From NCBI RefSeq assembly GCF_000473225.1, contig NZ_KI421509.1, positions 2,074,534 to 2,138,533 on the forward strand: a DNA stretch of 64,000 nucleotides, given 5' to 3'. The notes beneath the pieces were generated by a model. The model saw only the letters and a program-made list of their open reading frames with translations, was not told where the DNA came from and did no database searches. The translations under genes and the position numbers were made by a program. Below, piece after piece: positions 268 through 17,511 of the stretch; position 1 is the first letter of the stretch; every line of letters starts with the position of its first letter. This stretch comes from Sedimentitalea nanhaiensis DSM 24252 (GTDB lineage Bacteria; Pseudomonadota; Alphaproteobacteria; Rhodobacterales; Rhodobacteraceae).

Positions 268-320
268 GGGTCAATTCTCAATGACAATTTCTGCAGTTGC
301 CGGGTCAGTTCTCAGTGACA
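268..320 (-). repeat. Paired 19-bp terminal repeats of the IS21 element
   Basis: GGGTCAATTCTCAATGACA (268-286) and GGGTCAGTTCTCAGTGACA (302-320) match at 17 of 19 positions and are 34 bp apart start to start. Multiple short terminal repeats are a known feature of IS21-family ends and are binding sites for IstA. The outer copy marks the insertion boundary. Confidence 0.7.
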
Positions 321-1112
321 ATCAACACCCAATGCTCTGGTACGCAGAGTTTTTTGGCCTTCAGCGAAAAGCTCCATGACCTCAAGCCCGGCATCCATCA
401 CTTTCTGCACGCCTTCATCGACATCCGTGGCCCAGGTTTCGCCAATTCGTGGAGACAGATCATCACGCACATCGGCGATGATGCGATTTTTCCGATCTTC
501 CGGCAGACCATTCCAGGCTTCCTTGTAGAGCAGAGGCCGAAAGCCCGCACGATAGACGCCAGGGGAAAGGGCCTGAAACACAACACCCTTGAACTGAGAC
601 GCCCAATCGGCGGCACCGCGCATGCGTTTACCTTCAAGCCCAGCAATCGACGAGAACGGCGCATGCCGGGGGATGTGAAAGGCAAGATCGGTTGCGCGAA
701 CCTCGCCCGGAAAGAACACGTCTTTCTCAGCATGCAGTTCTGTCATCCGCTCGCAATACTTGGTTTCACGGATTTCTGCATAGGTCTGTTCCGATGGGTT
801 CATCGTGGTCGATGTGGCCACCTGCCCCGCATCGTAGCTGGGGCCGGTGAATATGATGTCCATTGCACGGCCACCCACGGCCCCTGCCTGCCCAAACGGA
901 GGCATCACCTCAGGACCACCGCGCCAGTTGGACTCGAATTCACCATCGAACCTGGCATTGATGTCATCGACAAACATCGCAAAGCCCCTGGAAATCCCCG
1001 CTTGTTTTGGGATCGGAAAAATGGCGTCTCTCGCGATTTTTCCGGCGCAGGCTGAGGTGGATGCGACCGCCACGATTGCCGCAACAATCGTGGCTTTTAG
1101 AACCTGTTTCAC
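312..1112 (-). pseudogene. TRAP transporter substrate-binding protein (DctP type), deleted and truncated by IS21
   Basis: The frame encodes a signal peptide (MKQVLKATIVAAIVAVAS) and a DctP-like periplasmic binding protein closely related to the intact paralogue at 10879-11853. Shared blocks include GEF..NWRGGPEVMPPF, ERMTE.HAEKD and PGVYRAGF. Compared with the paralogue, about 38 residues are missing in frame after GKRMR. The lost part includes the ERGTIDGFAMGP segment that lines the ligand site in this family. The last codons (Cys-His-stop) come from the IS21 end at 320, which removes about 23 C-terminal residues. The gene lies 22 bp downstream of the monooxygenase at 1135-2265 and was probably co-transcribed with it. 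It is very unlikely to make a working receptor. Confidence 0.85.
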
Positions 1113-1134: not shown

Positions 1135-2265
1135 TCAACCCAGTCCTACGGTCCAGGCATTGTATCCATAGACCCAGTCAGCATTGCCACCTTCTTTCAG
1201 CCATTCATTGGCGAGCGAGTTTTTCTGAACTTCCGCTGTGCGGCCTTTGCGGGCGTTTTCATAACGCTGCAGTGCCTCTTCAACACCATCGGGTCCGACA
1301 CCCTCCAGCGAGCGAGCCAGCACAACGGCATCCTCGATTGCCATACACGCACCCTGCGCCATAAACGGCACCATTGGATGCGCCGCGTCGCCCAATATCG
1401 TGACCCGGCCTCGTGCCCACTGCGCCATCGGCTCGCGCACATGCAGTGCAGATTTGGTCACTTCGGTGCAATTGGCGAGCAGCGCCTGTGCATTGGGGTG
1501 AAAGTTCGAATACTCTGCTCGCAATTCATCGGCATCTCCGGGCAAGGTCCAACCTTCTTCAGTCCAACCGTCCTGCGGTGTAGTTGCGAAAACAAAAATC
1601 TCTTCGCCCAGAGTCAGCGGAAAGGTCACGATCTGCTTTTCAGAAATCTCTCCCCACCATTTGGTGAACGCATCCAGATCCTCAAGCCCTTCGGCCTGAG
1701 ACTTTGGAAAAACCGCCCGGTAGGATACGATGCCCGTGAACTTCGGATCGTCCTTGCCCCAAAGCGAGGTACGGACCGCAGAATGAATCCCGTCCGCGCC
1801 GATCACCACATCAAAGGTTTGGCTTGATCCGTCTTCGAATTTGATCGTAGCTCCATTGTCGGCCTGCTCAACCACAGCTGCCGCCATTCCCAGATGAATG
1901 CTGCTCTCGGGCAATTGGCTCTGCAGAGACTTCAAGAGATCCGCGCGGTGGATTGTCAATTGCGGCGCGCCATATTTTTTCTCAGCGGCATCGCTCATCG
2001 GAAGACGCGAGGTCTCCTCCCCCGTGACCCCATCTCGACTGATCCGATATGTGGGACGCGCTGCGGTTTTGCGCAGGTATTCTCCGACGCCAAGCTTGTC
2101 CAGAGCGAAAACAGCATTGGGTGTCAGGTTGATATCCGCCCCGATTCGATTAAATTCGGCAGCCCGCTCAAAGACTTGAACGACATGTCCGGCGTTTCGA
2201 AGTGCTATTGCTGCGCTAAAGCCACCAATACCCCCACCACAGATTCCGACATTCAGTTTGTTCAC
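1135..2265 (-). CDS. FAD-dependent aromatic monooxygenase, NicC / salicylate hydroxylase type
   Basis: This 376-residue class A flavoprotein monooxygenase has the FAD motif GGGIGG at residues 10-15, a GADGIHSAVR segment, and the late GDAAHPMVPFMAQGACMAIEDA-type motif. It would use NAD(P)H and O2 to hydroxylate, possibly decarboxylate, an aromatic acid. Stretches such as SRDGVTGE, the ITIHR-like LTIHRADL and the C-terminal DWVYGYN resemble 6-hydroxynicotinate 3-monooxygenase (NicC) more than plain salicylate hydroxylases. The substrate is therefore inferred, not proven. The start is a GTG behind a strong AGGGGGAG ribosome site. The palindromic operator at 2282-2305 ends 16 nt before the start, pointing to repression. 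Confidence 0.85.
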   Translation of the reverse strand: MNKLNVGICGGGIGGFSAAIALRNAGHVVQVFERAAEFNRIGADINLTPNAVFALDKLGVGEYLRKTAARPTYRISRDGVTGEETSRLPMSDAAEKKYGAPQLTIHRADLLKSLQSQLPESSIHLGMAAAVVEQADNGATIKFEDGSSQTFDVVIGADGIHSAVRTSLWGKDDPKFTGIVSYRAVFPKSQAEGLEDLDAFTKWWGEISEKQIVTFPLTLGEEIFVFATTPQDGWTEEGWTLPGDADELRAEYSNFHPNAQALLANCTEVTKSALHVREPMAQWARGRVTILGDAAHPMVPFMAQGACMAIEDAVVLARSLEGVGPDGVEEALQRYENARKGRTAEVQKNSLANEWLKEGGNADWVYGYNAWTVGLG

Positions 2266-2281: not shown

Positions 2282-2305
2282 GTTCAAAATTGAACATATC
2301 GTTCA
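2282..2305 (-). promoter_or_regulatory. Three-half-site operator upstream of the NicC-like monooxygenase
   Basis: On the plus strand the site is GTTCA (2282-2286), N4, TGAAC (2291-2295), N5, GTTCA (2301-2305). The same layout recurs at 10412, 12023 and 12222, always in the same orientation relative to the gene it precedes. It abuts the ribosome site, so binding would block transcription or initiation. PobR and PcaU, which are IclR-family proteins, use operators with two inverted repeats and one additional direct repeat. That makes the adjacent IclR protein the likely binder. Confidence 0.75.
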
Positions 2306-2408
2306 ACGAATGCTAGCAACATTTACCAAACAAGAAAACAGTTTTTTTGACCCTCGGTTGCCGGTAAGAACCAAATGCTGAAATAGGCGACTTTTTTTGC
2401 TTAGGTCT

Positions 2409-2441
2409 GTTCAAACACGCGCAATCTGTTCTATTTTGTAC
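2409..2441 (+). promoter_or_regulatory. Degenerate copy of the operator upstream of the IclR gene (tentative)
   Basis: GTTCA at 2409-2413 and GTTCT at 2428-2432 have the same 19-bp start-to-start distance as the outer half-sites of the strong operators. The middle half-site position is unrecognisable. GTTCT is followed by N4 and TGTAC. This could be a weak autoregulatory site for the regulator starting at 2462. Confidence 0.25.
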
Positions 2442-2461
2442 AAAAATCGCAAGAGGTTGTA

Positions 2462-3268
2462 ATGATCCCCACTCCCGACAAAGTGTCTACTGCCTACTCC
2501 GTCCCACCGGTCGAGCGGGCATTGAACCTGCTTCGTTATATTGGAAACGGCAAAAAGTGCCGAAATCTCAGCACCGCTTCCAAGGAATTGGGGATCAACC
2601 GCACCACACTGATTCGCCTGATCCACACCCTTGCCGACAACCGTATGATTGAAGAAATTGAGGAAGGTGCGGGATACCGGCTGGGACCGGGCCTTATCAG
2701 CCTGGCCGCACAGGCCATTCATGGGCGCGATATTGTTCAAGTCTGTCAACCGATTCTGGCTGAATTGACCAAGGCCACCGGCATGTCGTCACATCTGGGC
2801 ATTCTGGATGGTCCGGAAATCGTTTACCTCAGCCGGGAAACCCCGAACAGCCATCTCGTCAGCAATGTGCGCGCCGGATCACGCCTGCCCGCGCACGCAT
2901 CATCGATCGGGCGTGCAATTTTGGCGGAGTTATCCGTGTCGGAACTGACCGAGCATTTTGCCACTACAGAACTTACCCCGCGCACCGACAAGACCCCAGT
3001 GACCCTGGAGGCCGTTCTGGAACAGGCCAGAGCAGACAAGGCTGCCGGGTTTGCCTGGAGCGAGGGGAACTATGAAAACGGCATCGGCTCGTGCGCGGCG
3101 GTCGTCTTTGATCGCAACGGGCACGTTGCCGGTGCGCTGAATGTTTCTGGTCCCCAGCACTTGTTCGCCGAGGAGACCAAAGCTGGTGATGGGGCGGTCA
3201 GAACTGCCGTCTTGAACGCGGCAAAACAGGCGTCTTTGGGGCTGGGCTATGGCGGCGACCAATATTAA
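2462..3268 (+). CDS. IclR-family transcriptional regulator
   Basis: This 268-residue protein has an N-terminal winged helix-turn-helix (residues about 14-75: VERALNLLRYIG..., TASKELGINRTTLIRLIHTL) and a C-terminal IclR effector-binding domain containing GSRLPAHASSIGRAILA and EGNYENGIGSCAAVVFD. Members often respond to aromatic acids (PobR, PcaU, PcaR). It is divergent from the NicC-like monooxygenase and convergent with the aldehyde dehydrogenase, overlapping its stop by 4 bp. It is the only regulator in the island, so it is the best candidate to bind the four shared operators. The start at 2462 follows an AAGAGG ribosome site. Confidence 0.9.
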   Translation: MIPTPDKVSTAYSVPPVERALNLLRYIGNGKKCRNLSTASKELGINRTTLIRLIHTLADNRMIEEIEEGAGYRLGPGLISLAAQAIHGRDIVQVCQPILAELTKATGMSSHLGILDGPEIVYLSRETPNSHLVSNVRAGSRLPAHASSIGRAILAELSVSELTEHFATTELTPRTDKTPVTLEAVLEQARADKAAGFAWSEGNYENGIGSCAAVVFDRNGHVAGALNVSGPQHLFAEETKAGDGAVRTAVLNAAKQASLGLGYGGDQY

Positions 3269-4749
3269 CGCAAGCGCGCCCAGGGGTGTGGTAAGCCGGA
3301 CAGGTCCTGATAAATCGACTTTTGCCGCTGGTATGCACGCAAACCATCCCGGCCTTTTTCGCGCCCCATGCCGCTTGCACCATCGCCCCCAAACGGCGTC
3401 GTGATCGAAAATTGCTTGTAGGTGTTGATCCAGACCGTGCCGGCCCGTATGGCCCGCCCCAGACGCCAGCATTTCGCATGATCGCGCGACCAGATCCCGC
3501 AGGCCAGCCCATAATCATTGTCATTGGACATGGCAATCACGTCTTCTTCGTCGTCAAACGGCATGACAACAAGAACGGGGCCAAAAATCTCTTCTCGACA
3601 GGTTTGCGCTTGGTTTGTCAATCCGGCGATAATCGTGGGCTTGTAATAGGCCCCCTGATCATAGTCCGCTCCGGTAGGGCGCGAGCCCCCAGTCAGGACC
3701 TCTCCGCCTTCATCGCGGGCGGCCTGCACATACCCTTCGACCGAGGCGCGATGGTCGGCATGCACCATCGACGACACCTGTGTCGCCGCATCAAACGGGT
3801 GTCCGACACGCAGGGCATTAGTGGCCTGAACCAGCCGATCCACAAACCGGTCGTAGATACTGCGTTGCACAAACAGGCGCGAACCGGCAATGCAGCTTTG
3901 GCCACTGGACGAAAAAATCCCAAACAGGATACCGGCGAGGGCCTGAACCTCATTGCAATCCTCAAACACGATGGTCGGCGATTTACCCCCCAGTTCCAAC
4001 GAAACCGGCATCAGTTTTTCGGCGGCGACATGGGCAAGCTGGCGCCCGGTTGACGTACCGCCTGTAAAGGACACTTTGGAAATATCGGGGTGCTCTACCA
4101 AAAGGTTTCCAACCTCACGGCCCGATCCCGGCAAAACCGAGAACAGCCCTTTGGGCAGGCCGGCCTCTTCGACGATGCGGGCCAGTTCAAGGCTGATCAA
4201 AGGCGACCAACTGGCCGGTTTCAAAAGAACCGCATTGCCCGCAGCCAAGGCGGGCGCGGCCTTTTGCGCATCCGATGCGATTGGTGAATTCCACGGCGTG
4301 ATTGCCCCGACAAGCCCCAGCGGTTCATGGACCGAATAGGTCAGATAATCCCCGCGCGGCGAGGTCAAAAGATCATCTGCGGTTTCCAGAACAGCCCCAA
4401 AATACCGGAACGTCGCCGCCGCCGATGTCGCAAGCGCGCGTGTTTCAGTGCGGGTTTTGCTGGTGTCGCGGCTTTGCAACCACGAAATCCGGTCAATATT
4501 GGCGGTGATGCCATCCGCGATCCGGTAAAGATAGGTCGCACGCTCATGCGGTTTCAGGTTCTGCCAAGCCGGGTCGGTCTGGGCCGTTATTGCACGATCG
4601 ATCGCGACCTCGACATCTTCTTTCGAGGCCCCGGCCAAAGTTGTATTTTCAGTGCCATCCGCAGCGAAAACCGAAGTGATATCGGAGCCGCGTCCGGTCT
4701 GCCATTCGCCGCCTACAAACAGGCGCCCGTCGGGAAAGGAATGATCCAT
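3265..4749 (-). CDS. NAD(P)-dependent aldehyde dehydrogenase
   Basis: This 494-residue ALDH-superfamily enzyme has the PWN motif (Asn154), Lys177 in LLKPAS, the general base Glu252 in ELGGKSP, and the nucleophile Cys286 in SSGQSCIAGSR. It oxidises an aldehyde to a carboxylate. It is the last gene of the minus-strand operon led by the cupin. Next to an extradiol dioxygenase it could act like a hydroxymuconic semialdehyde dehydrogenase, or oxidise an aldehyde released by the ThDP enzyme. The sequence does not decide between these. It lies 8 bp after the aspartate-dehydrogenase-like gene. Confidence 0.9.
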   Translation of the reverse strand: MDHSFPDGRLFVGGEWQTGRGSDITSVFAADGTENTTLAGASKEDVEVAIDRAITAQTDPAWQNLKPHERATYLYRIADGITANIDRISWLQSRDTSKTRTETRALATSAAATFRYFGAVLETADDLLTSPRGDYLTYSVHEPLGLVGAITPWNSPIASDAQKAAPALAAGNAVLLKPASWSPLISLELARIVEEAGLPKGLFSVLPGSGREVGNLLVEHPDISKVSFTGGTSTGRQLAHVAAEKLMPVSLELGGKSPTIVFEDCNEVQALAGILFGIFSSSGQSCIAGSRLFVQRSIYDRFVDRLVQATNALRVGHPFDAATQVSSMVHADHRASVEGYVQAARDEGGEVLTGGSRPTGADYDQGAYYKPTIIAGLTNQAQTCREEIFGPVLVVMPFDDEEDVIAMSNDNDYGLACGIWSRDHAKCWRLGRAIRAGTVWINTYKQFSITTPFGGDGASGMGREKGRDGLRAYQRQKSIYQDLSGLPHPWARLR

Positions 4750-4757
4750 GTCCGCTC

Positions 4758-5585
4758 CTAGATTACGATGGCGTCAGACCGGTTCAGGATGGTCCGCGCG
4801 AGGCTGAATGCCGTTGAAAGGGATGTTTTTGGGTTCAGAGGCGAGGCTTTTCCGATCAGGCGGACCGAATAGTCCACCGCTGCCGATCTGACCTCATATT
4901 CGTGGATATTGGCTGTGACTTGCGGGTCCGCAATCAGTCGAACCCGGGTTGCATCCATCCCGACGCCAGCCAAGGCCAGCGTTGCGGCCACATTGGCGTT
5001 TTTCGGAAAGGCTTTGGCGGCTTGCCGGGCGGAGCCTTCAAAAAATACAGCTTCCTGGGTCAGGGCGTCAAGGTCCAGGCGTTGCTCGGCCTCTGTCCCT
5101 TTCCAGGCGCTTGGCGGTTTGCGCCCCGTATAAATGACGCCTTGCAGGCCCGACAGGCGGGCCGCAGCCAAGGCATCGACCCCGCCAATGGCCCCTGCAG
5201 GCAAGATAATCTGGGCACTGGTCTTTTCCGCCGCATCCCTCAGCAATTGGAATAACACATCATCCCCAAGTGCGCCGATCGAGGCGACCACAAGGCTTGT
5301 CCCGGCGTCCAGGACACGAGGACCAAATTCCGCAACAGCCTGATGACCCGCGCATTCAACCACAAGATCCGGCATCGCGACCAGCAAATCCGCAATATCG
5401 GTAGTAATGTCGATTTGGCCGATCTGCCCCGCGCCGATGCCCTCCGCCAGCAAACGCGTTCGATCCGCCGCGCCGGGCCGCACAAGCAGCGAAAGCCGCT
5501 CTGGCGCGCCGCCGGGATAGTCACAGATTGCTTGCAAAAGGGTCTGGCCAATCGCGCCAAACCCGATCAGGGCCAGATGCTGCAT
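4758..5585 (-). CDS. L-aspartate dehydrogenase family protein
   Basis: This 275-residue protein has an N-terminal Rossmann fold (GFGAIG, residues 8-13), the ILPAGAIGGVDAL segment, YTGRKPP, NANVAATLALAG and NIHEYEV. The His in the last motif matches the catalytic His of the aspartate dehydrogenase (NadX) family. Known members interconvert aspartate and iminoaspartate or oxaloacetate with NAD(P). Here it is wedged between a ThDP enzyme (6 bp away) and an aldehyde dehydrogenase in a ring-degradation operon, with no NAD-biosynthesis genes nearby. I infer a catabolic role on an amino, imino or aldehyde intermediate, so nadX may be a misleading name. Confidence 0.75.
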   Translation of the reverse strand: MQHLALIGFGAIGQTLLQAICDYPGGAPERLSLLVRPGAADRTRLLAEGIGAGQIGQIDITTDIADLLVAMPDLVVECAGHQAVAEFGPRVLDAGTSLVVASIGALGDDVLFQLLRDAAEKTSAQIILPAGAIGGVDALAAARLSGLQGVIYTGRKPPSAWKGTEAEQRLDLDALTQEAVFFEGSARQAAKAFPKNANVAATLALAGVGMDATRVRLIADPQVTANIHEYEVRSAAVDYSVRLIGKASPLNPKTSLSTAFSLARTILNRSDAIVI

Positions 5586-5590
5586 GGGAT

Positions 5591-7243
5591 TTATACCTTG
5601 TTGCCTGCGGCACCGGCGGGCGGCCCCGAGAAGGATTCCGCAAACGGGCCGATTTTGACCATGTCCACCTCAAGCAAAACCGGTCCCTTGACGGCCATGG
5701 CCTGATCAAAGGTCTCGGCAAAGGCACCGATATTGTCGACCATCATGTGCGGCATGTCTATGGCGTCGCACAGCTTGGCAAAGTTGGGCACCTTGATCTT
5801 GGAATAGTGGCGACGGCCATCATACTGCGCGTCCTGAATATTCTCGATCACGCCATAAGCGGCATCGTTCATCAACAGGAAGGTCACATTCAGATCTTCA
5901 TCGACTGCGGTGATCAGCTCGGCAATGCCCAGCATCGACCCACCATCGCCCAGCAAAGTAATCACCCGCGCATCTGTCGAGGCCACCGCCGCGCCGATTC
6001 CCATGGCAATCCCCTGGCCAATACCGCCCCCAAGTGCGTGAACACCGAGGTTCGGGGCCGCGATCTGCACGTACCGGTTGCCAAAGGTGGAATTCGAGAT
6101 CGTCACATCGCGCACCCAAGGGTGACACCCGGCCGGGACAACTTCCAGCAGGTGATCGGCCACCACTTGATACGGTCCCAGACGCTCACGCAATGCGCCT
6201 TCGGATTTGGCCCGTGCGACCGCAATTTCATAACTATGGTTCGGATCAACATCCAGCCGATCGGGTAAACGATCCAGCAATCCACGCAGCGTTTGCGCCG
6301 CACCACCATTCAGGAACATATCCACCGGATAGTTCCGCCCGCACTGGCTGGGCTCGGCGTCGATCTGCACCAGGGGCTGCGGAAGTTTCATCTTGTTGTT
6401 CAGGGTTTCATTGCCCCGCAGGCGCGACCCGACCACGATCATCAGGTCCGATGCCTGATAGATCCCCTGTGCTTCGGGGGTCATGTTGAAAGCGCCAAGG
6501 GTGGATGGGTTATCTTCGGGCACAACAGCGCGTCCCTGGGTCGAGGTCACGACGCCAAAGCCCCGTTGGACCAACTCGCACGCCTCGACCGAGGCCTCGC
6601 GTGCGCCACCTCCAAGCCAGATCATCGGGCGTTTGGCCGATTTGACCAGCTCGGCCAAGGCATCCAGTTGGGCGTCGCTGGCCTTGGGGGCGGTGACGGT
6701 CGGGGGAGACAGCTCAAAGCTGGTGACCGCATCCAAACGCTGAACGTCCACCGGAATTTCCAGACTGACGGGTCCAGCAGGAGGAGTGCTGGCGGCTCGA
6801 ATGGCGGCGTCCAGCGTGCCGATTGCGGACTTCTCATCCCAGATCCGGAAATAGGCCTTGGAAACGCCTTTCAGCATCTCAGGCTGCTTGGGTACATCGT
6901 GAATAGCAGCCTGGTTACGGTCCATGAATTCACGATCGACCTGTGTGGTGATGTGCAGCAAACGGCTGCCAGCGGTCAGGGCCTCGGCCTGCCCACCGGC
7001 GGCGTTACCTGCGGCTGTTCCGGTTGAGGTGAGTACAACGCCAACTTCGCCGGACACGCGCGAAAACGCATCCGCCATGTTCATGGCCCCGGCCTCGCCA
7101 CGCGCAGTGACAAACCGGATGCGGCCCTGTTCGGCAATCCCGTCAAGGATTGGCATATTGTGAATTGAGATCACACCAAAGACGGTTGTCACACCGGCAT
7201 CAGCAAGGCTTTGAGCAATTTGATATCCAACGGTCTTGGTCAT
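5591..7243 (-). CDS. Thiamine-diphosphate enzyme, acetolactate synthase / benzoylformate decarboxylase-like
   Basis: This 550-residue protein has the three-domain ThDP architecture. The cofactor-activating Glu50 sits in TARGEAGAMNMADAF. A central nucleotide-like domain follows, and the C-terminal ThDP motif begins at GDGGS (about residue 432) and ends at LLMND. It should decarboxylate or ligate a 2-oxo acid. No regulatory subunit (IlvN type) is adjacent, and the operon context argues against branched-chain amino acid synthesis. A 2-oxo acid decarboxylase feeding the downstream aldehyde dehydrogenase is the simplest reading. It lies 21 bp after the SDR gene. Confidence 0.85.
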   Translation of the reverse strand: MTKTVGYQIAQSLADAGVTTVFGVISIHNMPILDGIAEQGRIRFVTARGEAGAMNMADAFSRVSGEVGVVLTSTGTAAGNAAGGQAEALTAGSRLLHITTQVDREFMDRNQAAIHDVPKQPEMLKGVSKAYFRIWDEKSAIGTLDAAIRAASTPPAGPVSLEIPVDVQRLDAVTSFELSPPTVTAPKASDAQLDALAELVKSAKRPMIWLGGGAREASVEACELVQRGFGVVTSTQGRAVVPEDNPSTLGAFNMTPEAQGIYQASDLMIVVGSRLRGNETLNNKMKLPQPLVQIDAEPSQCGRNYPVDMFLNGGAAQTLRGLLDRLPDRLDVDPNHSYEIAVARAKSEGALRERLGPYQVVADHLLEVVPAGCHPWVRDVTISNSTFGNRYVQIAAPNLGVHALGGGIGQGIAMGIGAAVASTDARVITLLGDGGSMLGIAELITAVDEDLNVTFLLMNDAAYGVIENIQDAQYDGRRHYSKIKVPNFAKLCDAIDMPHMMVDNIGAFAETFDQAMAVKGPVLLEVDMVKIGPFAESFSGPPAGAAGNKV

Positions 7244-7264
7244 GGGGGTCTTTCTCGTCGTAAT

Positions 7265-8056
7265 TCAGATAAAGCGGGAAACGCCGCCGGAGAGTTCCAA
7301 TTTAGCGCCCGTCACATAGCTGGCCGCAGGAGAGGAAAGGAACAAAAGCGCTCGCGCGGCCTCTGCTGCATGTCCCAATCGCTGAAGTGGGATGTTCTTT
7401 TTTATCGCCAGATCGCGGAACCACGCTTCGCGCGACTGGCTCTGATCGGGGCGGGCCTCAAAACGGCGTTGCCATTGCTGGCTGTCAACCAGGCCGATCA
7501 AAATGGAGTTGACCCGAATGTCGGGGGCCAACTCGGTGGCCAGAGATTTCAGCAGGTTTTGCACGCCGGCCCGCGCGGCTGAGGTGCAGACCATATGAGG
7601 TTCGGGTTGATATGCCAGCAGCGAATTGACTGCGGTGACCGACCCGGTCCCGCTGGCGCGCAGCTGATCCTGAAAAGCGCGGATAGGGTGCAGTTGGCTG
7701 AAGATTTTCAGCTCAAGCTCATCGCGCCAGTCGGTATCCGAGGTGTCGGCAAAGGTTGAAACCCTGCCCTGCCCCGCATTTGTGATCAACGCATCGCAAC
7801 CGCCAAACCTTGCGCAGACCTCTTGTGCGAACACGGTGTTCGCCTCGGGTTCAAGCACCGAAAACGCCTTTGCCAGAAGGCGAGCTTCCCCGTAGGCCGC
7901 TGCAAGATCGTCGCGCACGCGGTTCAGCCGATCCGCGCCGCGGGCGCAAAAAGCGACGTTTGCGCCTTCTGCCAGCGCAAGCTTGACCGTGGCCAGACCA
8001 ATGCCGGACGAGCCGCCGGTCACAACCACGGTTTTTCCTGTCAGACCCAGATCCAC
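7265..8056 (-). CDS. SDR-family protein with a non-canonical active site
   Basis: This 263-residue short-chain dehydrogenase/reductase fold has TGGSSGIG at 13-20 for NAD(P) binding and NAG at 93-95. The catalytic Ser is present (Ser145). The expected YxxxK at positions 158-162 reads TSAAR, so Thr158 replaces Tyr and Arg162 replaces Lys. The motif is intact in the other two SDRs of this window. This predicts altered chemistry or a non-redox role. The start is a GTG two bases after the stop of the upstream VOC gene, so the two are translationally coupled. Confidence 0.8.
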   Translation of the reverse strand: MDLGLTGKTVVVTGGSSGIGLATVKLALAEGANVAFCARGADRLNRVRDDLAAAYGEARLLAKAFSVLEPEANTVFAQEVCARFGGCDALITNAGQGRVSTFADTSDTDWRDELELKIFSQLHPIRAFQDQLRASGTGSVTAVNSLLAYQPEPHMVCTSAARAGVQNLLKSLATELAPDIRVNSILIGLVDSQQWQRRFEARPDQSQSREAWFRDLAIKKNIPLQRLGHAAEAARALLFLSSPAASYVTGAKLELSGGVSRFI

Positions 8057-8058
8057 CG

Positions 8059-8973
8059 TCAGTCTTTCTTCAGATGTGGAAAGCCGGGGTCAATCCGACC
8101 GGCCATAACGGTGCGCTGCGCCGGTGTGGGAGGGCCGGCCGTCATCCAGCGATCCATCGAATCCGGGTCGGTGCGCGACCAGACCTGTGCTTGGTGGGTG
8201 GCCTCATCAATCTGCTGCAACTCGGATGTGAATTCGATCACATAGCCCGAGGGCGAAACAAAATAGGCAAACGGGTTGTTGCCCGGCCCATGCCGCCCAG
8301 GCCCCCAGCTTGGCACCTGACCTTGCTGTTTCATCCGGCCAATGGCGCGCATATAACTGTCGAGATCGGGCAGCTCAAAAGCCACATGGTTTATCGCCGG
8401 GTATTTCGCACGGACAAGCGCGATGGAATGATGGTCGCTGCTGCAACGCAAAAACACCATCTGATCTGCGGAATAGTCGCTGACTTTAAAGCCCAGAACC
8501 TCCTGGTACCAGCGCTCCAGCCCTTCCATATCCGGGGTGTTCAGCACCACATGCGAAACTTTGCGCGGATAGGCAAAAACATCTTCAGCATCCTTCATCT
8601 GCAGATCGGTGGTAAATCGCAGACGGCGGTTGTCGGGATCCAGCACCTCGAAACCGTATCCGCCGATAAGGTCATCGAACACCGCCGGAGCCCCAAGCGC
8701 GCTCGCACCATTGGCAACCACCTGCGCATAAAGCGCATCCATATCCGAACGATTTTTCATCCCGAAATGGATATATTCTATACCGTAGGTGTCGCTGTCC
8801 TTCAGACCGTAAATAAAGGGTTCAGATCCGGTTCCACCCAGATAGGTGATACCTTCTTCGGACTGCGCAATGCGCAGCCCCCATAGTTTGGTATAGAAAT
8901 CGGCTGTATCAGTGATATCCGGCGCACGCATGACGATGCCGCGCAAATGGCCAACTCGTATCGGGTTGTTCAT
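8059..8973 (-). CDS. VOC-superfamily type I extradiol ring-cleavage dioxygenase
   Basis: This 304-residue protein has two vicinal-oxygen-chelate modules. The C-terminal module carries the probable Fe(II) ligands His141 (SHVVLN), His196 (INHVAFEL) and Glu247 (YVIEF). His228 in GRHGPG and Tyr237 before SPSG align with second-shell residues of BphC-type enzymes. It probably cleaves a catechol-like or dihydroxypyridine-like ring. The start overlaps the end of the hydrolase gene by 4 bp (ATGA). With the hydrolase and ALDH it forms a meta-cleavage set. The exact substrate is unknown. Confidence 0.8.
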   Translation of the reverse strand: MNNPIRVGHLRGIVMRAPDITDTADFYTKLWGLRIAQSEEGITYLGGTGSEPFIYGLKDSDTYGIEYIHFGMKNRSDMDALYAQVVANGASALGAPAVFDDLIGGYGFEVLDPDNRRLRFTTDLQMKDAEDVFAYPRKVSHVVLNTPDMEGLERWYQEVLGFKVSDYSADQMVFLRCSSDHHSIALVRAKYPAINHVAFELPDLDSYMRAIGRMKQQGQVPSWGPGRHGPGNNPFAYFVSPSGYVIEFTSELQQIDEATHQAQVWSRTDPDSMDRWMTAGPPTPAQRTVMAGRIDPGFPHLKKD

Positions 8974-9833
8974 TTCTTTCCTCCCTTGGCGGTTGTGTCG
9001 TTGTTCGTTCGATCTTGCCGGTCACATTGATGCAAAGCGAGTAAGGCCTGGACAAATTCCGTAGGCTTCTGCTGATAAATCGCATGCCCGGCATGGTTGA
9101 TACGATGAATTTCGGGGCTGCGCCCTGTCGACGCGGACCATGCTTGCGCTGCGCTCAGGGTCTGTTGCTCGGGCGTGACACGATCATTGATGCCGATAAT
9201 AAAACCGACATCAACCCGGGTGTTGCGAAGAGACGCAGGCAGATCCCCCGAGGCCAGCATCCTGACGGCTTGCGCATATCCGGCGCGATCAACCCGTGAC
9301 ATAGCGTTTTGCACCTGTGCAACGACATCTGGATGCAGCAGCGGTTCAAATACCAATCGCGGCGCGCGCCGTGCTGCAAACGTATCCGCACCGAGCAGAT
9401 CCAGCTCTTCGATCCGGCCAGCAACGGCTTTTGGCAAGCTCGCCCCTTGATCAACCCCATACCCACAAGCACAGGATGCCAGGATCAGCCGCTCAACCCG
9501 GTTTGGATATGCCTCGGCAAAAGCACCCGCTATGAGCGTTCCAAGCGAATGGCCGACCAGAGTCGCGCTCCGGATTCCGACAGCATTCAGAAATCCGTAC
9601 AGCGCATCCGCATAATCAGATGCCAAAGGCCAATGCGCGCTCAAATGACGTGAGCCGCCATAGCCGGGTGCATTCCAGGCAATTGCCCTTACATCCCCAG
9701 GCAAATGGCTCAACAAGTGCTGGAACGATGAGGCATTTGATCCGATACCATGCAAAAACACCATGGCGTCACGATGCCCCGGACGCTCTAGGTAAGTGAC
9801 GCCATCTGCTGTTTTTTCGACGATATCGGACAT
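8970..9833 (-). CDS. Alpha/beta-fold hydrolase, meta-cleavage-product hydrolase type
   Basis: This 287-residue alpha/beta hydrolase has an oxyanion motif FLHGIGSN near residue 27 and a nucleophile elbow GHSLGT with Ser96. Asp217 (NDRVTP) and His250 (NHAGH) complete the triad. It resembles MhpC/BphD-type hydrolases that split the ring-fission product, but N-formylmaleamate deformylase (NicD) has the same fold and cannot be excluded. It lies 15 bp downstream of the cupin gene and overlaps the dioxygenase gene by 4 bp, so it is part of one operon. Confidence 0.85.
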   Translation of the reverse strand: MSDIVEKTADGVTYLERPGHRDAMVFLHGIGSNASSFQHLLSHLPGDVRAIAWNAPGYGGSRHLSAHWPLASDYADALYGFLNAVGIRSATLVGHSLGTLIAGAFAEAYPNRVERLILASCACGYGVDQGASLPKAVAGRIEELDLLGADTFAARRAPRLVFEPLLHPDVVAQVQNAMSRVDRAGYAQAVRMLASGDLPASLRNTRVDVGFIIGINDRVTPEQQTLSAAQAWSASTGRSPEIHRINHAGHAIYQQKPTEFVQALLALHQCDRQDRTNNDTTAKGGKK

Positions 9834-9848
9834 CTTTGTCTTCCCGGA

Positions 9849-10391
9849 TCAGCGCTTCAGCTTTGAAACAGGATGGTCTTCTGGATATGTCGGCGTTACC
9901 GGTTTCGGGTTGCCGATCATCACACACATCAGAGCCTCTTCAATGCCCTCGTTGCGCAGACCGCGATATACGCCCGGGGGCACGGAAATGATGTCGCGTT
10001 CAGTCAGGACGGTTTCGACTTCTTCGCCCTGATGTTCGATGAACAAGCGGATCTTATGTCCTTTGAGGACAAAGAACACTTCTTCGGCGTCGCGGTGGAT
10101 GTGCAACGGACCCTCACAGCCTGCCGGCAGAACCATGGTTGAAAACGTGAAATTCTCGGCAGGAATAACATTGTCATCCGAAGCCACACCGGTTGCACCG
10201 GTCCCAATATAGCGCATCTGGGCACGTTTGTATTTCGGGTCATGGTCAGCCTGGAATTTCAGAGCATTCCAGTCCAGCGTCCGCGTTTCATAACGCGCGA
10301 CGCGGCTCTCGACCCACTCACCCAGCGTTTTGCCTTCGGGGATCTCGACGTCATCTGGTTCGATCGACGGAAATTTCTTGGGCGCTGCCAT
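9849..10391 (-). CDS. Cupin-domain protein, first gene of the catabolic operon
   Basis: This 180-residue single-cupin protein carries the metal motif GPLHIHRDAEEVFFVLKG (HxH...E), then SVPPGVYRGLRNEG and an HPVSKL tail. The start at 10391 is chosen for the AAGGAG ribosome site 8 bases upstream; a longer frame would run into the operator. It is too small for gentisate dioxygenase (about 350 residues) and could be an isomerase, a small dioxygenase or an accessory cupin. It heads the operon that runs to 3265 and is preceded by the operator at 10412-10435. Confidence 0.8.
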   Translation of the reverse strand: MAAPKKFPSIEPDDVEIPEGKTLGEWVESRVARYETRTLDWNALKFQADHDPKYKRAQMRYIGTGATGVASDDNVIPAENFTFSTMVLPAGCEGPLHIHRDAEEVFFVLKGHKIRLFIEHQGEEVETVLTERDIISVPPGVYRGLRNEGIEEALMCVMIGNPKPVTPTYPEDHPVSKLKR

Positions 10392-10411
10392 TGATGGTCT
10401 CCTTACTATCT

Positions 10412-10435
10412 GTTCATATGTGAACTTATTGTTCA
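10412..10435 (-). promoter_or_regulatory. Three-half-site operator upstream of the cupin-led operon
   Basis: GTTCA (10412-10416), TATG, TGAAC (10421-10425), TTATT, GTTCA (10431-10435). The inner part, GTTCATATGTGAAC, is a 14-bp inverted repeat. All three half-sites are perfect. The site ends 20 nt before the cupin start codon, just ahead of the ribosome site. The layout is identical to the sites at 2282, 12023 and 12222. Confidence 0.8.
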
Positions 10436-10436
10436 T

Positions 10437-10828
10437 TATTATTATTTACAGATTCCCGTTCATGTGTCAACAACCGCGTTCACAGGTTGGTAATGAAATC
10501 CGCAGCGTATTGTTAATAAGGGCCCACAGCGCGCTATCCGCCCGCTTGGCGGGCTGGGAATTGCGGTTTGACACAGCTTTGAGACCGGCGGCCGATGACC
10601 CAAGATCTGCTGCCACCGCCGCAATACGGCCAAGCAGCGCGGGTCCAGAACCATGCTCTTGGCCTGATCAGTGCTATTGTGAATGGGAGGCACCCTTGGC
10701 CAAGATATCGCCGGATTGGCGTTCATCCAAAAAGCCGCCCACGCGCGGCAGCCGGATCGGGGACTATCGGCAATCCCGCCGCAGCAGTCCAGCGTGGGCG
10801 GCTCAAAACGTAGCAGGCCCGGCACGAA
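10437..10828. other. Gene-free stretch between the cupin operon and the TRAP binding protein
   Basis: Several short open frames cross this stretch on both strands, but none has a recognisable domain, a good ribosome site or neighbour-like codon use. The position is where TRAP membrane subunits (dctQM) would be expected after dctP; no trace of them is visible. Confidence 0.5.
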
Positions 10829-10830
10829 GA

Positions 10831-10860
10831 AACAGAACGGGGCCTTCGCCTCGTTCTGTT
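10831..10860 (-). terminator. Rho-independent terminator of the TRAP binding-protein gene
   Basis: AACAGAACG (10831-10839) pairs exactly with CGTTCTGTT (10852-10860). The stem extends inward by four more pairs (one G-T) around a CTTC loop. Read on the minus strand it lies just after the dctP stop at 10879 and is followed by a short T-rich run. It suggests that this dctP is transcribed alone. Confidence 0.75.
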
Positions 10861-10878
10861 CACGGTATAAATGCCCGG

Positions 10879-11853
10879 TCAGTCGACCAGCATCGAGCGA
10901 AGTTCCGAAGCTTGCTCTTCACCGGCGGCTTCGGCCACGCCTGCCCATGCGGCATCCAGTGCCAGCTCACGGAGTGACACGGCGTCTTCTGACGACAATT
11001 CAAACTTCGAGAAACCCTCGGCAGCCATTCCCTCAGCCGCTTTCACAACCTTTTCCGCCCAGATAGCATCAATCCGAGACGAAAGATTGCCTCTTACGTA
11101 AGCCGTGATGCGGTCGCGCAATTCCTGCGGCATCTCGTTCCATGCGTCCTGATTCACCAGGATTGGGAAACCGGCCCGGTATACGCCCGGATAAACGACA
11201 GTAGACACAACACCTTTGTATTGTTCGCCACGCACAAGCGGGCCCATTGCGAACCCGTCAATAGTACCACGCTCCATTGCGGTATAGATTTCACCTATCG
11301 GCAAAATCAGCGGTTCTGCGCCCAAAGCTTCGACGAGGGGTGCCAGCGTCGGGAAAACGCGGACACGCTTGCCTTTGAGGTCATCAAGCGACGTGATCGG
11401 GGCGTTCAAATAGAGCAGAAAGCTCAGGTCTGTCGCCGGCACTTCACCCAGAAAAACAAGGTCTTTTTCCGCGTGGATTTCTGTCATGCGTTCATAGTAA
11501 CCGGTCTGGTTGATCTCATCGTACCGCTTGAACGACAGATTCATGGACGTCGAACTTGGCACCAAACCGGAATAGTAGCTGGGACTGGTAAAAGCCATGT
11601 CAATCGCACCGTTGCGAACGGCTTCGGCCTGCTTGAATGGCGGCATGACTTCTGGACCACCACGCCATTTGATCTGGAATTCACCTTTGAATTCGTTGTT
11701 GATCTCTTCAATAAACATGGCGAAGCCTGCGGAAATACTGGCTTGGCGCGGAGTCATAGACACCGCGTTCATCGTGAATTCTTCAGCCCAGGTTGCTCCG
11801 GTTGTGATCGCCAGCGATGCGGCCACCAGAGTGCTTTTCAGAAAATGTTTCAT
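10879..11853 (-). CDS. TRAP transporter substrate-binding protein, DctP family
   Basis: This 324-residue periplasmic receptor has a Sec signal peptide (MKHFLKSTLVAASLAITTGATWA). It carries the family features WRGGPEVMPPF, LKGKRVRVFPT, the ERGTIDGFAMGP segment and PGVYRAGFPILVN. It should bind an organic acid and hand it to DctQM-type membrane subunits, which are absent from this window. The start at 11853 is chosen because it begins the signal peptide and follows GTGGAGA. Transcription probably starts near the operator at 12023-12046, leaving a leader of up to about 170 nt. It is the intact paralogue of the broken gene at 312-1112. Confidence 0.88.
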   Translation of the reverse strand: MKHFLKSTLVAASLAITTGATWAEEFTMNAVSMTPRQASISAGFAMFIEEINNEFKGEFQIKWRGGPEVMPPFKQAEAVRNGAIDMAFTSPSYYSGLVPSSTSMNLSFKRYDEINQTGYYERMTEIHAEKDLVFLGEVPATDLSFLLYLNAPITSLDDLKGKRVRVFPTLAPLVEALGAEPLILPIGEIYTAMERGTIDGFAMGPLVRGEQYKGVVSTVVYPGVYRAGFPILVNQDAWNEMPQELRDRITAYVRGNLSSRIDAIWAEKVVKAAEGMAAEGFSKFELSSEDAVSLRELALDAAWAGVAEAAGEEQASELRSMLVD

Positions 11854-11950
11854 GTTGTCTCCACTTTTTTGGTTGTTGGTCATGTCAACGGAGTTCAGGG
11901 GGCGTGGCTGTTTCTGCACGCTTTGGTTCGCACCCTACCCAAAAGCCGCG

Positions 11951-11970
11951 CGCCACCTCCAACGGTGGCG
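11951..11970 (-). other. Hairpin in the dctP leader
   Basis: CGCCACC (11951-11957) and GGTGGCG (11964-11970) form a perfect 7-bp stem with a six-base loop, inside the untranslated region between the operator and dctP. Read on the minus strand it is followed by CGCGGCTTTTGGG. It could be an attenuator-like or stability element; no riboswitch class is recognised. Confidence 0.35.
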
Positions 11971-12022
11971 ATTTACGGCAGGTTTGTTGTAGGCTTAGCC
12001 GTTCGCCGACCCTTCGCTTATC

Positions 12023-12046
12023 GTTCAATAGTGAACTGTTAGTTCA
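12023..12046 (-). promoter_or_regulatory. Three-half-site operator upstream of dctP
   Basis: GTTCA (12023-12027), ATAG, TGAAC (12032-12036), TGTTA, GTTCA (12042-12046). The half-sites are perfect and spaced exactly as at 2282 and 10412. Unlike those, it lies 169 nt from the start codon, so the promoter is probably close to the operator and the transcript has a long leader. Confidence 0.75.
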
Positions 12047-12221
12047 AGTATTGTGGAGATTCATTTTCTGTCAAGAAAATTATGAGAACCGCGCCCTGAA
12101 CTGCTGATGTAAGATCACTCACCCGTCGTGCATACAGTGGTGGCTGGGCCGGCCTTCAAGGCAGCCAAGTATTCTAAGCAGCAAAACAATCTTGACGTAA
12201 GCGATATTCAGCCCGATAATG

Positions 12222-12245
12222 TGAACAATTAGTTCTATATTGAAC
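12222..12245 (+). promoter_or_regulatory. Three-half-site operator upstream of the second monooxygenase
   Basis: TGAAC (12222-12226), AATTA, GTTCT (12232-12236), ATAT, TGAAC (12241-12245). This is the same design in the opposite orientation, matching the opposite direction of the gene, with one mismatch in the middle half-site. It ends 16 nt before the ATG at 12262, the same distance as for the NicC-like gene. Confidence 0.75.
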
Positions 12246-12261
12246 ATCAAGGGTGTGCACT

Positions 12262-13434
12262 ATGGCCAATTCTTCTTTGAATATCCTCATTGTAGGCGGC
12301 GGGATCGCTGGTTGCGCAGCAGGAATCTCTTTTTCCTCTGCGGGGCACAATGTGCGAATCGTCGAAAAGCAGGAGCTGTGGAAATTCCAGAGCTCCGGAA
12401 TTTTCGTTTATAGCAACGGCCTGGAAAGCTTGCGCGATCTCGGCGTGCTCGATGAAATTCTGATAGCAGGCTTTACCATTCCTGATGGGATCAACAGTTA
12501 CTTTGACCACTCTGGTGCTGAAATTGTCGAAACGAAGTACCCGACAGCAGACGACGGGAAAATTCCGGCAATTCTGGGAATCAAACGTGCCGAGTTGCAC
12601 CGTGTTATGGCCAACAAGCTCGCAGCCATGGGCGTTGAAATTATCCTGGGCACGACCGTAACGTCCATTCAGCAATCCGAACACACCGCCAGCGTAACGC
12701 TCACGGATGGGTCTTGCGACAGCTATGATCTGGTAATCGGCGCTGATGGGTTGCGCTCAGAAATTCGCCCGATGATCGGGATTGATGTTAAACCCAAATA
12801 TACCGGATTTGGCATATGGCGGTCAGTACATGAACGCCCGGAAACCCTCGTGAACAAAATCATGATGATGGGGCCGGGAAAACGCTTCGGCATCATGCCG
12901 ATAAGTGATGACCGGCTGTACACCTTCGGCACTGTCGCAGAGCCGGAGGGGTCCTTTTTCCCACCGGAAACATGGGCCGAAACCATGCAAAGCCGATTCG
13001 CGGAGTTCAGCGGCCCGGCCCGGCAGTTTCTGGACGCACTGGGGCCAGAGAGCGAAATTCTCTATACGGCTGTCGAAGAGGTCGTGCTGCCGCTTCCATG
13101 GCATCGCGGTCGCGTTGTCTTGATTGGTGACGCCTGTCACGCTTCGACCCCATTTATGGGGCAAGGTGGCGCGATGGCCATGCAGGATGCGGTTGTTCTA
13201 GCACTATTATTGGCGGGCGATTTGTCCGTCGACGCCGCATTGCAAAAGTTCGGCGAACTTAGACTGCCCGTGTGCCAGTTCGTTCAGAACGTGTCCCGCG
13301 CGGTCGGAGAAGCTGGCGCCAAAGAGAGCAAATCTGCCTCGTCACCGGATTATTCGGGGTTGCGTGATACGGCTCAGACCGCCGTGGATGATTTTTATGG
13401 AACGCTCAGAGCACTCAACGGCACGGCCCCATGA
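12262..13434 (+). CDS. FAD-dependent monooxygenase (UbiH/salicylate hydroxylase superfamily)
   Basis: This 390-residue class A flavin monooxygenase has GGGIAG at 12-17, LVIGADGLRSEIR around residue 155, and GDACHASTPFMGQGGAMAMQDA near the C-terminal third. It should hydroxylate an aromatic ring with NAD(P)H and O2. The start at 12262 has AAGGG eight bases upstream; a GTG nine bases earlier is in frame but lacks a site. It is only distantly similar to the monooxygenase at 1135, so the two probably act on different intermediates. It shares the operator of the island. IS remnants begin right after its stop. Confidence 0.85.
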   Translation: MANSSLNILIVGGGIAGCAAGISFSSAGHNVRIVEKQELWKFQSSGIFVYSNGLESLRDLGVLDEILIAGFTIPDGINSYFDHSGAEIVETKYPTADDGKIPAILGIKRAELHRVMANKLAAMGVEIILGTTVTSIQQSEHTASVTLTDGSCDSYDLVIGADGLRSEIRPMIGIDVKPKYTGFGIWRSVHERPETLVNKIMMMGPGKRFGIMPISDDRLYTFGTVAEPEGSFFPPETWAETMQSRFAEFSGPARQFLDALGPESEILYTAVEEVVLPLPWHRGRVVLIGDACHASTPFMGQGGAMAMQDAVVLALLLAGDLSVDAALQKFGELRLPVCQFVQNVSRAVGEAGAKESKSASSPDYSGLRDTAQTAVDDFYGTLRALNGTAP

Positions 13435-13519
13435 AAACGGGATCGTTTGAAGCTGGAGTTTTCCGCCAGGCTTCCCGGGCCGGGAAAGGCGCTGTATCGC
13501 ATGAAGGCTGGACCTATCG

Positions 13520-13855
13520 CGCTTTGTGCCGTCCCAGGTGCTCGTTCTGGCCGCTTTCCGTTCGAGGGCCGACGGGGCTTTTGCGGCCCAGTTCTGAGTG
13601 CCGCCGTCGCGGATTGTAGAAGCCGTTTATGTATTCGAAGAGCGCCATCGCAGCCTGCCTGCTGACCGCCCGACCGATCGCCCGTCGTGCATACGGATCC
13701 AGGATCACAGCGAGAAACAACCAACATTCACGGGGCCAAACACAGCTGATGTCGCCGGCCCCTTTCTGGTTTGGTTTCTCCGCTGTGAAGCCCCGATCCA
13801 GCAGGTTCGGCGCGCTGGGGAATTTACGGTCACTGCCGATCGCGTCACCCATCAC
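13520..13855 (-). pseudogene. IS3-family OrfB transposase remnant with internal deletion
   Basis: On the minus strand the frame reads SAPNLLDRGFTAEKPNQKGAG, then LFLAVILDPYARRAIGRAVS, and jumps directly to RQAAMALFEYINGFYNPRRRHSELGRKSP. The head and tail match IS3-family OrfB proteins. The middle, which should hold the second Asp and the Glu of the DDE triad (roughly 85-90 residues), is missing. The N-terminal part and OrfA are absent too. It cannot be an active transposase. Confidence 0.75.
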
Positions 13856-16450: not shown

Positions 16451-17511
16451 GGGCTGCCATTTCGGCGTTTTGGCGTATTCTGGGCGGACTCATCCTCATG
16501 CCATCAGCCTCCGTCGCACCAGAAACAGGTTCCCGAGTGCGAACAGCGTGAAGAGCTGGGCGCGGTTCTTGGCGAGGCCCCGGTAGCGGGTTTTCACGTG
16601 GGCAAACTGGCGCTTCACGATCCGGAACGGATGCTCGACTTTGGCTCTCACCATCGCGATCACCCGGTTGATCCGTTCGTCGAGGGAATGCAGCTTGCCA
16701 CCCTTGGGCGCCTTGCGCATGACGCCCCAGAACTTGCCCGGTCCCGTGAACGCCGCCTCGCGCTCGGCGCTGACATAGCCCTTGTCGGCCCAGACCGAAG
16801 TTTCCTCGCCGTGCAGCAGGTCGTCCCAGACCTGGCTGTCGTGCAGTCTGGCGGTCGAGGTGTCCAGGCTGTGAACAACGCCGCTGTCCGCATCGACGCC
16901 GATGTGGGCTTTCATACCGAAATACCAGTCATTTCCCTTCTTCGTGGACGACATCTCGGGGTCGCGTGCACCCGCCTTGTTCTTCGTCGAGGACGGCGCG
17001 TCGATGATGGTCGCATCGACCAAAGTCCCCGAGCGCAGGGTGATCCCCTTGTCTGCCAGATGCGCGCTCACCTCCGCGAAAATCGCCTCAGTCAGCCCAT
17101 GCCGTTCGAGCAGGTGGCGAAAGTTGAGGATCGTAGTCTCATCCGGAATGCGGTCGTCACCCAGCTCGATCCCGGCAAAGCGGCGCATCGCATCGCTGTC
17201 ATACAGCGTCTCTTCTGCCATCGGGTCGCTCAGGGCATACCAATTCTGGAGGAAATAGACCCGCAGCATCATCTCCAGCGGCATCGGCGGGCGACCGCCC
17301 TTGGAGCCGACTTTCGGGTAGTGCGGAGCGATCAGCGCCAGCATGCGGCCCCAGGGCACCACCTCATCCATCTCCGCCAGAAACTGTTCCCGCCGCGTCA
17401 CCTTCTTCTTCATCACATCGCGAAGACCGGGAAAAACAGGTTGCTTTGGCATCGGAACGGCTCCTTGGCGGGTTGCCTCAAGTCTACCAGATCACGCCAG
17501 AAGCGGCAGGT
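16451..17511 (-). mobile_element. Apparently complete IS5-family insertion sequence
   Basis: The element carries one intact transposase gene. Its ends are probably marked by an imperfect inverted repeat: CTGCCATTTCGGCGT near 16454-16468, and the complement of CTGCCGCTTCTGGCGT near 17495-17510. I could not identify a target duplication with confidence, so the exact ends are approximate. It separates lepA from a low-GC two-gene unit. Confidence 0.65.
16496..17452 (-). CDS. IS5-family transposase, full length
   Basis: This 318-residue DDE transposase has an N-terminal region PWGRMLALIAPHYPK, then the first Asp in GTLVDATIIDAP, the second in SVWADKGY, and the Glu in MVRAKVEHPFRIVKRQF. The YFGMKAHIGVDADSG block is typical of the IS5 group. 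No stop or frameshift is present, so it is probably active. It is unrelated in detail to the IS5-like remnant at 14090-14308. Confidence 0.92.
   Translation of the reverse strand: MPKQPVFPGLRDVMKKKVTRREQFLAEMDEVVPWGRMLALIAPHYPKVGSKGGRPPMPLEMMLRVYFLQNWYALSDPMAEETLYDSDAMRRFAGIELGDDRIPDETTILNFRHLLERHGLTEAIFAEVSAHLADKGITLRSGTLVDATIIDAPSSTKNKAGARDPEMSSTKKGNDWYFGMKAHIGVDADSGVVHSLDTSTARLHDSQVWDDLLHGEETSVWADKGYVSAEREAAFTGPGKFWGVMRKAPKGGKLHSLDERINRVIAMVRAKVEHPFRIVKRQFAHVKTRYRGLAKNRAQLFTLFALGNLFLVRRRLMA

Follow-up and report, generated by a model that had tools for sequence, protein, structure and literature searches.

A three-box operator at four promoters of a catabolic island in Sedimentitalea nanhaiensis and the IclR-family protein that probably binds it

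In a stretch of 64,000 nucleotides (nt) from Sedimentitalea nanhaiensis DSM 24252 (contig NZ_KI421509.1, positions 2,074,534 to 2,138,533; the whole stretch is called the window here and numbered from its first letter), a catabolic island carries four copies of a motif of three half-sites, GTTCA-N4-TGAAC-N5-GTTCA. They precede the gene of a NicC-like flavin adenine dinucleotide (FAD) monooxygenase (MO1), a cupin-led operon, dctP, which encodes a tripartite ATP-independent periplasmic (TRAP) solute-binding protein, and the gene of a second FAD monooxygenase (MO2). The sites are unique in the genome, the motif co-occurs in other genomes with one clade of IclR-family proteins, and it stands at a recurring distance from a sigma-70-like -35 box. 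The regulon for a ring-degrading pathway that these sites outline is real and well conserved, and we consider it highly probable that they are operators of the island's own IclR protein, which would repress until a ligand releases it. Three-box sites in general are already known; what is new here is this regulator, its targets and their spread over several bacterial groups. For this conserved catabolic island the outcome is a precise regulon open to experimental test, in which the operator, the regulator, the promoter frame and the target genes can all be named.

Four copies of one motif

Three copies match without mismatch on the forward strand, at 2282-2305 before MO1, at 10412-10435 at the head of the cupin-led operon and at 12023-12046 before dctP, and the fourth, at 12222-12245 on the reverse strand before MO2, has one mismatch, which falls in the middle box. 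In close relatives the site equivalent to the MO1 operator reads GTTCT-N4-TGAAC-N5-GTTCA. A first-pass annotation, made from the letters alone, had listed all four sites with these positions and strands and with exact spacing, and its remark that they keep one orientation relative to the gene also holds, the palindromic pair facing the gene and the third box lying distal in 4 of 4 cases. Of its start-codon distances, 16 nt is correct for the site at 2282 and for that at 12222 (ATG at 12262), and 20 nt for that at 10412. Its placing of the sites next to the ribosome site, however, does not extend to dctP: there the first GTG in the open frame is 103 nt away from the operator, and the likelier start, an ATG preceding the signal peptide, is 169 nt away. 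Since the dctP site keeps the promoter frame described below with its start codon 169 nt away, the operator appears to be tied to the promoter and not to the ribosome site; the predicted promoter is what its position follows with the steadier relation.

The concern raised in the first-pass annotation, that the motif might be equally common elsewhere in the genome, was not borne out by a scan of the 4.95 Mb sequence: apart from the four island copies nothing matches with fewer than two mismatches, and matches with exactly two number 11. Within the window, allowing up to three mismatches gave 10 matches, two of which (10402 and 12013) are offset matches overlapping true sites, against a mean of 1.28 and a maximum of 5 in 100 shuffles. 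Simulated sequence, with the 14 kb island and its promoters taken as Markov models, contained no match at one mismatch or fewer in 150 draws and 600 kb. When both spacers were left free between 0 and 11 nt in 25 loci (488 kb) at up to one mismatch, 44 triples were found, 29 of them with the N4/N5 spacing and 15 with all other spacings together, none of which occurred more than twice. The same scan with control words yielded 3 triples for reversed words, 1 for permuted words, 2 for three direct boxes and 9 for the order GTTCA-TGAAC-TGAAC, the last with at most 3 at any one spacing.

Transposase remnants flank the island on both sides, as might be expected if the four sites were copies of a mobile repeat. 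The letters of N4 and N5 differ among the copies, however, while the boxes are common to all four, and three of the four window copies share a TTGAC/-10 frame; the Markov draws yield no such site, and the same layout is found again in 25 genomes or records. We give chance or a mobile repeat practically no weight as the origin of the sites: genome uniqueness, the spacing scan and the co-occurrence in the phylum sample described below contradict this reading, and chance was rejected.

Position relative to promoters

For comparison across islands we collected 39 sites picked for a motif match near such islands, the shorter locus L040 being replaced by the longer L064 and a Variovorax control stretch (L075), which has no site but little of the pathway either, not being counted. 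The boxes are strongly conserved, with 11 of 15 box columns invariant among 35 aligned sites, and the N4 spacer is 96% A or T in the 39 sites, a share that falls to 53% where the pattern is matched by chance (ten such matches). A TTGAC starts 28-39 nt upstream of the operator in 34 of the 39, and a TTGAC or TTGAT in 37; a TTGAC occurs in the matching downstream window in 0 of 39, and TTGAC or TTGAT stands at that distance in 2 of the ten chance matches. Counted in 30 sites, TTGAC was observed 25 times against a letter-shuffle mean of 0.43 (largest 4). In the 30 sites scored for a -10-like hexamer, the best one either touches the operator or stops no more than about 10 nt short of it.

In the window, boxes predicted by consensus match are a -35 TTGACA at 10465-10470 and a -10 AATAAT at 10441-10446 for the cupin operon (reverse strand), TTGACA at 12069-12074 and AATACT at 12047-12052 for dctP (reverse strand; this -10 box touches the operator), and TTGACG at 12192-12197 and GATAAT at 12215-12220 for MO2 (forward strand). 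Given this placement of -35 and -10 boxes, transcription is predicted to start at or inside the operator, and the operator-over-start layout so predicted holds in the window for the cupin operon, dctP and MO2. Repressors commonly bind at such a position. In the mechanism that we propose, the IclR protein (2462-3268) would bind the three alternating half-sites, which extend from the -10 box, or from a point shortly after it, over the transcription start, and so bound it would stop RNA polymerase from starting or from leaving. The promoters of MO1, the cupin-led operon, dctP and MO2 would be silenced in this way, and a pathway substrate or intermediate would release the protein.

The first-pass annotation had taken PobR and PcaU as its models. 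These IclR-family proteins of Acinetobacter baylyi are activators. They resemble the island's system in having a palindrome with an external direct half-site and differ from it in box sequence, in inner spacing and, if the island's protein represses as proposed, in their mode of action. The shared three-box layout stands, then, but with the operator covering the predicted transcription start, repression is likelier in the island than activation of the PobR/PcaU type. That the IclR protein binds the sites and activates from them seems to us unlikely, even though its best NCBIfam match is the PcaR/PcaU/PobR subfamily model TIGR02431 (138.4 bits, below the cut-off of 284.75), PcaU and PobR have the three-box layout in common (PMC8222616), and the lack of a good -35 box at the MO1 promoter of the window would suit an activator. 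What speaks against activation is that in most sites no more than about 10 nt separate the predicted -10 box from the operator. Moreover, we know of no activator of the IclR family that acts from over the transcription start.

A different reading places the function of the boxes in RNA, where boxes 1-2 and boxes 2-3 can each pair, near the predicted transcript start, to form two mutually exclusive leader hairpins of an attenuator or switch. Among 34 distinct sequences, however, a two-sided pair change was found at 0 of 5 pairs in either hairpin, one pair is broken in 13 of 34 for the gene-proximal hairpin and in 8 of 34 for the other, and box 1 begins at about the transcription start, so that it may be transcribed only partly. 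It is the letters that are conserved and not the pairing; we rejected the hairpins and regard them as barely credible.

Several observations weigh against our proposal of repression by the island's IclR protein. The 39 sites were selected by their match, and candidates with two mismatches were left out (in L031, L033, L063, L064 and L065, some being offset matches of true sites). Several of the predicted -10 boxes are poor matches, and the MO1 site of the window is without a TTGAC -35 box, which the MO1 sites of close relatives have. No consistent operator was found close to the iclR start across the clade (23 members scanned within 80 nt). Of the 15 genomes with an IclR orthologue in the family sample described below, 8 have no exact site, all eight having a site with one or two mismatches in the fetched DNA. 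Finally, when 17 IclR genomes were scanned at up to one mismatch with a looser pattern, in which boxes 1 and 3 end in A or T, 12 of 39 places lay outside the island or pathway contigs, and around the five of these that were checked there was no pathway gene that could explain them.

Two of these five places are in one genome, G272: they are one-mismatch sites (L092, 8257-8280 and 8419-8442) that face outwards about 160 bp apart, off the island and without a pathway match nearby. TTGAC or TTGAT stands at the usual distance from each of them, but not from the other three checked places; the pair is possibly another target of the same regulator.

Co-occurrence with the regulator

The predicted binder is encoded at 2462-3268 on the forward strand and belongs to the IclR family by its Pfam domains HTH_IclR (29.4 bits, cut-off 22) and IclR_C (119.7 bits, cut-off 24). 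In a first tree, 23 island IclR proteins fell on one side of a branch (support 100/100) and 12 other IclR proteins of the loci on the other; in a tree enlarged by five proteins the division was 26, including those of Cupriavidus, G539 and G609, against 14 (100/100), with the three distant proteins on a separate branch next to the 23. In the helix that should contact DNA, the 23 read INRTTLIRL or a near variant and the distant ones VNRVTVMRL. An imperfect two-box palindrome, GTTC-N6-GTAC, lies at 2428-2441 (forward strand), 20 nt before iclR, and resembles the relatives' MO1 operator in sequence. Comparable palindromes (at most one mismatch) stand within 80 nt of iclR in 5 of 23 clade members, that of the window included, and a weak autoregulatory site is possible there.

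We compared the distribution of this protein with that of exact sites, that is, sites without mismatch, A or T being allowed as fifth base, in two genome samples, which share some genomes and are not independent, using a protein search that scores only the best first-look candidates and may miss orthologues. In the family sample of 295 genomes, 10 have an exact site: 7 of the 15 with an IclR orthologue (E at most 1e-40) against 3 of the 280 without (Fisher p 2e-8). In the phylum sample of 398 genomes, where the cut-off was E at most 1e-60, an exact site is present in 5 of 5 genomes with the orthologue against 9 of 393 without (p 2.5e-8). Two of these nine, G539 and G609, have the site directly before an MO1 homologue, 59% identical in G539 and 56% in G609, and a more distant IclR protein of the clade is encoded behind it; in the other seven, and in the three site-only genomes of the family sample, no pathway or IclR match was found within about 1.5 kb on each side of the site (less in one short contig).

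Starting from the protein, IclR genes of the clade were found without the motif in 24 genomes or records, and in 23 of these the fetched DNA contains a site with no more than one mismatch; with the motif-found G539 and G609 added, the count is 25 of 26. The exception, G233 (L033, a contig of 12.9 kb), holds only sites with two mismatches, at 1611-1634 and 4207-4230, and in G162 the site is on another contig than the IclR gene, heading the same pathway (L060). Cupriavidus sp. EM10 served as a forward test: locus L073 held, near its end, an IclR protein with 44% identity to that of L039 and 36% to that of the window, and no site, and the extended stretch (L088) contains an exact site directly before MO1 with TTGACC upstream. 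The first-pass annotation had regarded the island's IclR protein as the natural binder, and had suggested comparing related islands. In two orders of Alphaproteobacteria as well as in Vibrio and Cupriavidus, that comparison ties the motif to the clade and the island, and it supports the protein as the predicted binder. The spread takes in Nitratireductor (L043, of another alphaproteobacterial order), Vibrio nigripulchritudo (L045, Gammaproteobacteria) and Cupriavidus (Betaproteobacteria in the record taxonomy). Four loci with related pathway genes in which only other IclR types were found (L046, L047, L072 and L074) have no site with one mismatch or fewer.

Could some other regulator bind the sites, with the IclR gene merely linked? 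In many relatives the neighbourhood of the site also encodes a small 'recombinase-like helix-turn-helix (HTH)' protein or a second type of IclR protein, the latter 6 kb away in L088 and 3 kb away in L090. However, this second type clusters in both L088 and L090 with that of L046 (99/98), and L046 and L072 hold it without having the site; no second IclR protein was found in the first 14 kb of the window. We think it quite improbable that such a regulator is the binder. Two named candidates were rejected, the small HTH protein because it has no match above noise in the window (best E 0.35), and LexA, whose box in Alphaproteobacteria is GTTC-N7-GTTC, because this sequence is not found at any of the four sites.

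Comparison with known IclR systems

Suvorova and Gelfand (2021, PMC8222616) describe three-box IclR sites of alternating direction in 32 orthologous groups, PcaU, PobR and HmgR among the proteins with a third box, and the external half-site is needed for PcaU binding (PMC8222616). The island site likewise has three boxes of alternating direction near gene starts, and its TGAAC-N5-GTTCA pair, aligned by eye to the published consensus, fits the group 2 geometry (TGRAACA-N1-2-TGTTYCA). The other pair, GTTCA-N4-TGAAC, has by eye 10 nt between its outer triplets; set against the four main subgroups given there, in which group 1 spacing is 11 or 12 nt, this is 1 bp shorter than the 11-type and 2 bp shorter than the 12-type. 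The orthologous group of the island's protein may itself be among the 32. A literature search for footprints of IclR proteins on three half-sites found none. IphR of Comamonas sp. E6 also combines a palindrome with an extra half-site in aromatic catabolism (PMC8222616) and differs in box sequence and spacing. PheR of Sphingobium is an IclR-family repressor of an aromatic catabolic operon that is released on exposure to the substrate; its operator differs from that of the island, and the accessible part of the report states no three-box layout (PMC13273656).

Two modes of dimerisation on DNA have been proposed for IclR proteins (PMC8222616). In the island all three boxes might be needed at once, the regulator moving between boxes 1-2 and boxes 2-3 of one operator fixed over the transcription start. 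We see a small chance that such a switch with two dimer placements operates here; if it did, a single 24 bp site would act as a two-state switch held at a near-constant promoter distance across several proteobacterial groups. The evenly kept three-box layout in any case makes these islands a good test bed for the dimerisation proposal.

Genes of the island

MO1 (1135-2265, reverse strand) has 6-hydroxynicotinate 3-monooxygenase as its best solved relative (5eow, E 2.3e-79), a likeness that suggests a hydroxylated ring acid as substrate. The catabolic operon (3265-10391, reverse strand) encodes a cupin, an alpha/beta hydrolase, a VOC dioxygenase, an SDR, a thiamine diphosphate (ThDP) enzyme, an aspartate dehydrogenase-like protein and an aldehyde dehydrogenase. 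dctP runs from 11853 to 10879 on the reverse strand when started at the ATG before the signal peptide, Pfam DctP being matched on the longer frame 10879-11919, and MO2 occupies 12253-13434 on the forward strand.

The core common to the islands is the operator, MO1 and the IclR protein, and MO1 is the target shared by the most distant ones. Because this core is common to distant groups, the compound handled by MO1, or its product, is likely the inducer; following this lead could identify the substrate and yield a component for a biosensor. Around this core the regulon varies. Wherever the fetched DNA covered the ring-cleavage operon of an alphaproteobacterial or Vibrio island, the operator stands at the head of that operon; in several Rieske-type islands the site found precedes the operon head and not MO1, and in the window it additionally precedes MO2 and the separate dctP. 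Relatives of MO2 in L026-L028 have no site with four mismatches or fewer in the roughly 300 nt scanned upstream (the L026 stretch includes no more than the start of the gene), and from this sample of three, recruitment of MO2 to the regulon may be recent.

Literature searches on homarine, on aspartate dehydrogenase together with Rieske, extradiol or ThDP enzymes, on IclR proteins with Roseobacter TRAP transporters and on IclR proteins with the 6-hydroxynicotinate enzyme returned nothing that we recognised as the island's pathway. A commentary on riboflavin breakdown (PMC12752717) deals, in its accessible part, with another pathway.

The pathway also exists in a second version, which has a Rieske oxygenase and, leading the operon, the small HTH protein, and in which the same operator is present (L043, L044, L060, L061, L063 and L065-L068); all of these loci but L061 have an ABC transporter match, taken from the record annotation in L043 and L044.

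Behind MO1 in the window, a shortened dctP-like frame (312-1112, reverse strand; L059, 10460-12808) lies beside transposase-like frames. In L024, L026 and L064, dctP, dctQ and dctM stand behind MO1, and the dctM product shares 68-69% identity with its Vibrio counterpart. In the present genome the dctM-like protein that comes closest to that of L024 reaches 32-33% identity, which suggests that the TRAP membrane subunits have been lost here. To the right of the island lie an integrase-core fragment just under the Pfam cut-off (13514-13855, reverse strand) and a DDE transposase (16496-17452, reverse strand).

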